Shown one piece after another: positions 246 through 10,963 of a stretch of DNA of 17,785 nt; the first letter of the stretch is position 1; every line of letters starts with the position of its first letter. A model generated the notes under the pieces. That model had not been told where the DNA came from and did not search any database. It saw only the letters and a list, made by a program, of their open reading frames with translations. The position numbers were made by a program, and so were the translations under genes. This DNA is from Gryganskiella cystojenkinii (lineage: Eukaryota > Mortierellomycota > Mortierellomycetes > Mortierellales > Mortierellaceae), in contig JAAAIG010000793.1 in assembly GCA_015852425.1 (NCBI GenBank), forward strand, positions 1 to 17,785, in the 5' to 3' direction.

Positions 246-440
246 CTAGTAGCTCTTGCGGCACCAACCCCAAGTTCCCGTAGAGATAGCACAATCGAGA
301 AAGGGGCAGCATTCTACAGGGGGCCATACAGTCGGGTTGCAACGCTCGCCCACGTGTCTGCATTCGTCTTGCACTTTCGCAGGAACAGCAGCTGTGAAAA
401 TCAGAAGAACGCACAGAACAAGCAGGTATTGGAGCTTCAT
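246..440 (-). CDS. Secreted six-cysteine knottin-like peptide precursor
   Basis: An intronless frame encodes 64 residues. Residues 1-21 form a clear signal peptide (MKLQYLLVLCVLL followed by a small-residue AVPA-type cleavage site). The mature part of about 43 residues has six cysteines spaced C-x6-C-x9-CC-x4-C-x9-C, the C-C-CC-C-C order of inhibitor-cystine-knot (knottin) peptides, with several Trp and Pro residues. Knottin-fold peptides include protease inhibitors, antimicrobials and ion-channel ligands, and nothing here picks among these. An ATG 24 nt upstream would add eight polar residues before the signal peptide, so the inner Met at 438-440 is preferred. The leader is nearly the same as that of the secreted peptide at 10733. 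It could be a secreted effector or an antimicrobial peptide. The gene is real with fair confidence; its function is unknown. Confidence 0.65.
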   Translation of the reverse strand: MKLQYLLVLCVLLIFTAAVPAKVQDECRHVGERCNPTVWPPVECCPFLDCAISTGTWGWCRKSY

Positions 441-10660: not shown

Positions 10661-10732
10661 TCTTGCATTTTTCACCGCCTCACAATCCATTTCTGCCTTG
10701 TATTCCCCTTAATACAGCAATTCCATTCAAAA

Positions 10733-10963
10733 ATGAAAGTCCAATATTTGGTAATCCTCTGTGTTCTTTTGAATTTCGCCGCTTCACGTCCCTCCAGCCC
10801 TGCAAGCCACTCTTCCGAGAAGCGTTCTATAACAAAGGACCAAATACTGGAGGCCGTGTCAGCAATGAGCGTGATGGATGTTGTAGACCTCATATCAGCT
10901 ATGGAGGAGAAATTTGGCGTCTCAGCTGCTGATGCTGCTGTTGTTTCCCCTGGCCAGGTCTAA
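10733..10963 (+). CDS. Secreted precursor carrying a bacterial ribosomal bL12 (L7/L12) N-terminal domain
   Basis: An intronless frame encodes 76 residues. Residues 1-18 form a signal peptide ([18 protein letters not shown]) close to that of the knottin-like precursor at 440-246. Residues 19-31 are a short Ser/Pro-rich pro-segment ending in Glu-Lys-Arg, a Kex2-type site. Cleavage there would release 45 residues starting [11 protein letters not shown] and including [20 protein letters not shown]. That is unmistakably the N-terminal dimerisation and L10-binding helical hairpin of bacterial bL12, of the gammaproteobacterial type, beginning at the residue that is first in bacterial bL12 after Met removal. 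The bL12 hinge and C-terminal factor-binding domain are absent: the frame ends a few residues after the hairpin ([11 protein letters not shown]), and no further bL12 sequence was found downstream. Role unknown. A mitochondrial bL12 gene is unlikely because the leader is secretory and the C-terminal domain is missing. The start at 10733 is chosen because it opens the signal peptide; an in-frame Met at 10640 would put 31 extra residues before it. Confidence 0.85.

Follow-up and report, generated by a model that had tools for sequence, protein, structure and literature searches.

The DNA analysed here (the window, 17,785 bases) is the whole of contig C858, one of the 1050 contigs of a 35.0-Mb assembly. 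Its other genes include, by Pfam, a calcineurin-like phosphatase, a protein kinase and a DUF202 protein; inspected by eye, the genes neighbouring the locus of interest are eukaryotic in look and apparently split by introns, and it is from their appearance that the host is taken to be a fungus. Among them lies a short open reading frame (ORF; Table 1) with a single match across the assembly. The N-terminal leader was called a signal peptide by hydropathy and by eye (top mean of 3.26 over nine residues on the Kyte-Doolittle scale), and is presumably cleaved after Ala-Ala-Ser, a guess made by the −3/−1 rule. The Lys-Arg pair that closes the following pro-segment (10820-10825) is one that we take to be a kexin-type site. 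A P_proprotein domain, as in kexins and furin, is encoded on contig C808 (E 5.3e-15, 59 of 86 positions), in a stretch with one in-frame stop that is perhaps an intron.

The peptide predicted to follow Lys-Arg has 45 residues starting with SITKDQ, a mass of 4.6 kDa, a pI of 4.05 and a charge of about −5.5 at pH 7. Its first 35 residues are those of an N-terminal domain of bacterial ribosomal protein bL12, of the type found in Enterobacterales. The dibasic pair occupies the position of bL12 Met1; consequently, a kexin cut at this site would restore the Ser1 start. The layout put forward in the original prediction, namely a signal peptide, a pro-segment ending in Lys-Arg and a 45-residue bL12 part, was borne out by the translation, the Pfam match and the match to a solved structure, and the translation likewise agrees with the proposal that processing would recreate the bL12 N-terminus.

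Table 1. Coordinates of the chimeric ORF, its parts and the related leader gene within the window
Feature	Position	Strand	Basis
Whole ORF, 76 residues plus stop, uninterrupted	10733..10963	+	Translation
Signal-peptide-like leader, 18 residues, hydrophobic	10733..10786	+	Hydropathy; leader relatives within the genome
Pro-segment, 13 residues, C-terminal Lys-Arg	10787..10825	+	Translation
bL12 N-terminal (dimerisation) domain, mature residues 1-35, equal to rplL codons 2-36	10826..10930	+	PF16320, solved bL12, Enterobacterales rplL
Short diverged tail, in register with the hinge start in several rplL genes	10931..10960	+	rplL alignment
Stop codon TAA	10961..10963	+	Opposite GAA (Glu) in L126, L127 and L036; end of similarity
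Paralogous leader on an unrelated six-Cys peptide, stop included	246..440	−	Leader pattern, blastn, translation

A leader shared by dispersed genes

The leader of the chimeric ORF has relatives in the same genome, in support of the proposed fusion to a secretory leader. A strict pattern made from its first 11 codons matched two places in 35 Mb, both on this contig: the chimeric ORF itself and 409-440 on the minus strand. When up to three mismatches were allowed, six places in the assembly were found; a reversed control pattern gave zero matches in the assembly under either setting. The second gene, at 246-440 (−), encodes MKLQYLLVLCVLLIFTAAVPAKVQ followed by a six-cysteine peptide with the spacing C-x6-C-x9-CC-x4-C-x9-C, which we take to be knottin-like and which weakly resembles UPF0506 (22.2 bits against a cut-off of 23.2). 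The two leaders, 10 kb apart, are identical at 41 of 60 bases and 13 of 20 residues, values that none of 5000 codon shuffles reached for either measure. In a blastn comparison of the two gene regions the sole match with E below 0.01 spanned 53 bases and lay at the leader (10731-10783 versus 390-442, E 6.7e-5).

Outside the window, the leaders on C582 and C640 are related to that of the chimera both in protein (11 of 20 residues, reached by one of 5000 shuffles) and in bases (0 of 5000). For C165 the bases support a relationship (0 of 5000) and the protein similarity is weak (8 of 20 residues, 147 of 5000), and the sixth place, on C179, looked like chance and was excluded from the shuffle test. 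The mature parts behind the C582, C640 (L013) and C165 (L010) leaders differ by eye. Judged from these sequences, a resident leader thus precedes different peptides, one of them bacterial in origin, and since its mature parts are so different it appears to export whatever follows.

Two further observations were made on members of this family and their surroundings. At C582:366-509 (L012), a related leader is followed by GPVGYPGVYLNVGSFRAWID, which is like the C-terminus of proteases with the chymotrypsin fold (E 0.016 for the best PDB match). The tail has no Pfam trypsin match, and a search of the assembly with the trypsin model PF00089 at E 0.001 gave zero matches; the similarity is weak, and the tail could be a second captured fragment or what is left of a protease gene since lost. 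In the window, the segment 962-1906 (−), which lies between the two leader genes, carries a reverse transcriptase/RNase H remnant (PF17919, 7e-7, just under the cut-off), which may have aided local duplication.

Bacterial relatives and limits of the homology

Pfam model PF16320 (Ribosomal_L12_N) matched residues 34-72 of the ORF with 55.1 bits and an E-value of 6e-15 (cut-off, 25 bits). The NCBIfam model of full-length L12, TIGR00855, scored 41.7 bits, below its cut-off of 84.4, as expected for a fragment. The best PDB match was the bL12 chain of 3j7z, presumably the E. coli protein, over residues 32-75 (E 4.5e-14); other bL12 chains followed (8rdw, 42 bits; 1dd4, 26; 7pao, 25; 8yeq, 18; 2zjq, 17), and acyl carrier proteins scored about 18 bits. 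The E-values of the Pfam and PDB matches rule out a chance similarity to bL12. Two other genes in the assembly were found with PF16320, one on C533 (L003) and one on C100 (L004), making three matches with the chimera. The C533 and C100 genes form a paralogous pair, each continuing into an L12-like C-terminal frame, and are probably mitochondrial.

A scan with one genome per species confirmed at least 437 bacterial relatives. About 64 of the best 80 are, by record title, what we take to be Enterobacterales; one is titled Chryseobacterium (L046) and the rest are other gammaproteobacteria. The search of the bL12 part against bacteria that had been called for thus ranks gammaproteobacteria, chiefly Enterobacterales, first, and by similarity ranking of the sequences the donor group is, at about the level of order, Enterobacterales-type. 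Across 117 bacterial loci read on both strands, a set that includes duplicates of one gene (L014 = L095, L016 = L094), identity peaked at 31 of the 33 N-terminal residues, a value shared by 64 loci, and at 37 of 45 over the whole peptide. The residues L8, S12 and D21 occur jointly in Candidatus Pantoea edessiphila (L014), and the pair L8 and D21 is found in Prodigiosinella (L016) as well as in more remote gammaproteobacteria. Of 392 genomes taken from the family of Ca. Pantoea edessiphila, 390 carry the match (G001 being the genome of L014). Every residue in mature positions 1-35 is seen at its position in at least 17 of the 80 bacterial proteins, and all eight positions invariant among the 80 are kept (V16, L22, M26, E27, K29, F30, G31 and V32). 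Tail residues D36 and Q44 are present in none of them.

Two other sources were considered and rejected. Plasmid records gave 14 with matches, none spanning 80% of the query. Among viral contigs (viral_contigs) there were 33 pattern matches and no relative confirmed by tblastn, and the contig carries eukaryotic-type genes.

Homology to rplL runs from codon 2 to the stop and takes in about ten codons of the hinge. The 45 bases preceding codon 2 match the upstream DNA of L036 and of L016 at 9 positions each, and no rplL likeness was seen 3′ of the stop in comparisons with four rplL loci (22-27 of 105 bases), both chance levels. By blastn with all 135 bases, the aligned portion extends from base 1 to between bases 129 and 134 in the top bacterial genes, at 73-75% identity. 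The tail was examined separately, with 36 bases, 5000 codon shuffles and eight rplL loci. L126 and L127 matched at 27 bases each, a value reached by 7 and 15 shuffles, respectively, and L036 at 26 bases (17 shuffles). Alignments to L129 (26 bases, 68 shuffles), L014 (18, 102) and L128 (24, 325) were weaker; L016 (20, 1893) and L073 (19, 2471) gave no support, as their hinges are probably shifted by one residue. A tblastn search of the window with five whole bL12 proteins found nothing past the N-terminal domain better than E 0.5, and hence no relic of a C-terminal domain. Together with the Pfam match, the rplL relatives and the single copy in the assembly, these data support a bacterial origin with reduction to the N-terminal domain. 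The further statement that the peptide ends where the hinge begins holds in that the domain remains whole up to roughly residue 35; the exact stopping point was misplaced, as the last ten residues align with the Ala-rich start of the hinge.

Synonymous divergence and codon usage

The protein has changed little and the codons have changed a great deal. Where residues are identical, 74% of codons (63-80%) differ from those of the 98 bacterial rplL loci, out of the 117 read, that share at least 30 of 33 residues; the 61 such loci among the first 80 give the same figures. Among those 61 bacteria, codons for the same residue differ in 12% of cases on average and in 50% at most (1731 non-identical pairs), the maximum belonging to L014, a symbiont with AT-rich third codon positions (GC3 0.24). 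Compared with four rplL genes, the bL12 part matched at 72-75 of 99 bases, where fully random synonymous codons would give 72.5-74.5 (standard deviation about 3). The highest values in the 117 loci were 75 of 99 (L073) and 100 of 135 (L126 and L127). In the 392 family genomes, with up to two candidates scored per genome, the best long DNA match among those listed was 75% identical; a partial match reached 78% over 68 bases (G059), and many short matches had higher identity and weak E-values.

Neutral divergence was simulated from three rplL starting genes, each mutated to an equal number of base changes in 5000 runs. Whatever the starting gene, none of its 5000 runs retained the observed number of residues, 30 or 31, and a stop codon arose in 39-44% of runs. 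Either the protein was conserved in the host as its codons became saturated by drift, or codons of this kind were present in the donor from the outset. The bacterial genomes compared contain no donor with codons already scrambled; were one to exist, the argument for selection would fall. As read from the sequence, a near-unchanged protein over rewritten DNA suggests that the fungus uses the peptide.

Comparison with host codon usage gave a less simple picture. Of the three usages fitted to the bL12 part, uniform usage fits best (ln L −52.3), followed by that of the other window genes (−59.2) and that of rplL (−70.4). The host table draws on a few window genes, of which six stretches were used. 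The proportion of synonymous versions drawn from host usage that scored as low as the bL12 part was 0.000 of 2000, and the value per codon of that part against the host is −0.154, beyond the span seen when the kinase gene is cut into windows of 45 codons (−0.022 to 0.179). At 0.047 per codon, the ORF's own leader and pro-segment are host-like, fitting host usage slightly better than uniform usage. The Cys-rich leader gene is also off host usage (−0.086), and the C582, C165 and C640 genes are host-like. In our reading the codons of the bL12 part reflect relaxed codon choice in a little-expressed gene; a foreign or a young segment could look alike. Full adaptation should make a gene resemble the host along its whole length, and in this respect the bL12 part counts against the interpretation given below.

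Readings of the locus and relation to known systems

On balance, these sequence comparisons make it probable that the ORF is an established chimera of the start of an Enterobacterales-type rplL gene, under protein-level constraint in the host. We propose that rplL codons 2 to about 46 entered the host nucleus and became joined behind the leader of a resident family of secreted peptides. The product would enter the secretory pathway and be trimmed by kexin at Lys-Arg, releasing the acidic 45-residue peptide. This would then fold like the N-terminal helical hairpin of bL12, as its identity to solved bL12 leads us to infer, and dimerise. Secretion, processing, folding and selection in the host are all predictions for this peptide.

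As to its action, the candidate that we favour, and put forward tentatively, is interference with assembly of the bacterial ribosomal stalk, through uL10 or bL12 itself. These would be the likeliest targets, since it is the residues under constraint in bacterial bL12 that the peptide has kept. The peptide would occupy the stalk site and bring no C-terminal domain to recruit elongation factors, so that bacterial translation would be lowered. For this it would have to reach the cytosol of bacteria, most plausibly of ones living in or on the hyphae, and that need for entry is a weak point of the mechanism. The full scheme, in which a dominant-negative stalk mimic is secreted and released by kexin, and long selection driven by uL10 kept the peptide while its codons were scrambled, seems doubtful as a whole. 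A simple membrane-active peptide, also suggested originally, is unlikely, as the predicted mature product is acidic; with its negative net charge it does not qualify as a classic cationic antimicrobial peptide.

About as likely as the stalk mimic, and quite possible in our estimation, is that the bL12 fold, once secreted, acts outside the cell as a compact helical dimer (a scaffold, a signal or a decoy for bacterial recognition) with no ribosomal target. Secretion takes the peptide away from ribosomes, and the leader family carries varied mature parts, including the Cys-rich peptide, as this reading would have it. A scaffold should, however, tolerate many substitutions, and only two or three of 33 residues differ from the nearest bacteria even though synonymous sites look saturated.

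A functionless chance fusion seems unlikely. Here a bacterium outside the sample, one with unusual codons, would have donated the segment at a later time; the segment would have fallen in frame by accident and be hardly expressed or not at all. The ORF is short and known from one genome, and the contrast between its uniform, non-host-like bL12 codons and its host-like leader is what such an event could leave. Yet the matches listed from the 392 family genomes hold no long one above 75%, even the most deviant close rplL gene, that of symbiont L014, differs in at most 50% of synonymous codons, and the exact replacement of Met1 by Lys-Arg would have to be coincidence.

It is very unlikely that splicing places the leader and the bL12 part on different transcripts: the neighbouring genes do appear, by eye, to be interrupted by introns, but this ORF is continuous, with both halves intact and in frame. 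An assembly chimera or bacterial contamination is still less probable. A bacterial ribosomal protein inside a draft assembly invites the suspicion, and an assembly artefact had been named in advance as something that could undo the original prediction; however, synonymous sites differ strongly from all 98 close rplL genes, the codons are unlike those of the bacteria compared, and the bL12 part is in frame with a leader that has genomic relatives. Bacterial-type bL12 is absent elsewhere in the assembly by the PF16320 search, and rplL similarity was not found outside the segment. A bacterial genome within the assembly is disfavoured because its own rplL should have appeared in that search. Plain E. 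coli contamination was rejected: blastn at E-values up to 1 found zero matches in a collection of 20,395 E. coli records. A scan for bacterial promoters and terminators found none, but shuffles expect fewer than one of each, so that this result carries little weight. Derivation from the host's own mitochondrial bL12 can be set aside, for the two mitochondrial-looking PF16320 genes of the assembly score about 28 bits against 55 for the chimera, and the N-terminal piece they share aligns poorly to the peptide.

The preferred reading, an established chimera, has precedents for several of its parts. In arthropods, HGT-chimeras join host and bacterial segments in one reading frame, and PMC13389597 reports transcription of 36 of 41 tested and purifying selection. 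The ORF at 10733-10963 likewise holds a bacterial and a host segment. It differs in its non-arthropod host and in having a core ribosomal protein fragment as its bacterial part; the word "ribosomal" is absent from the main text of PMC13389597. In Schistosoma japonicum, according to the abstract of PMC3434034, similar signal sequences occur on different dispersed genes with repeats nearby. The leader described here is similarly shared by dispersed genes of one genome, with homologous leaders before unrelated mature parts. Unlike that family, whose abstract features no bacterial domain, this one includes a bacterial domain and comprises a handful of leader members.

Mobile bL12 is known from phages: according to PMC6375957, the identity of these versions to cellular bL12 is about 30-40%, and contacts with elongation factors are said to be retained. 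There, as here, a bL12 domain lies in a non-bacterial genome and is itself mobile; unlike the phage proteins of that account, the chimera has a near-identical N-terminal domain alone. Bacterial bL12 itself (L7/L12; PF16320; PDB 1rqt and 1rqu) is alike in 31 of 33 N-terminal residues and 37 of 45 overall, and the same hairpin is expected. Unlike it, the chimera has a leader and a pro-segment, a short hinge and no C-terminal domain, and lies on a contig of eukaryotic genes. Among xenologs of early-diverging fungi, signal peptides were reported in 33% versus 7.7% of the background (PMC11291939); neither "ribosomal" nor "Enterobacter" appears in the main text of that survey. No bL12 that is secreted or was acquired by a fungus was found in the literature searched (titles and the beginnings of abstracts, mostly outside subscription journals). 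Thus, ORFs combining host and bacterial sequence, shared leaders and mobile bL12 are already known, and the unusual part is the ribosomal protein fragment.

Core ribosomal proteins are seldom considered raw material for transferred, secreted peptides. If the chimera is expressed, a eukaryote would be sending out part of the machinery of bacterial translation, and the leader family would offer a testable route by which new secreted peptides may be made from foreign fragments. If uL10 is the target, stalk assembly would be open to attack by a natural peptide. With a kept protein and scrambled codons, the claim of function can be put to a direct test in sister species.
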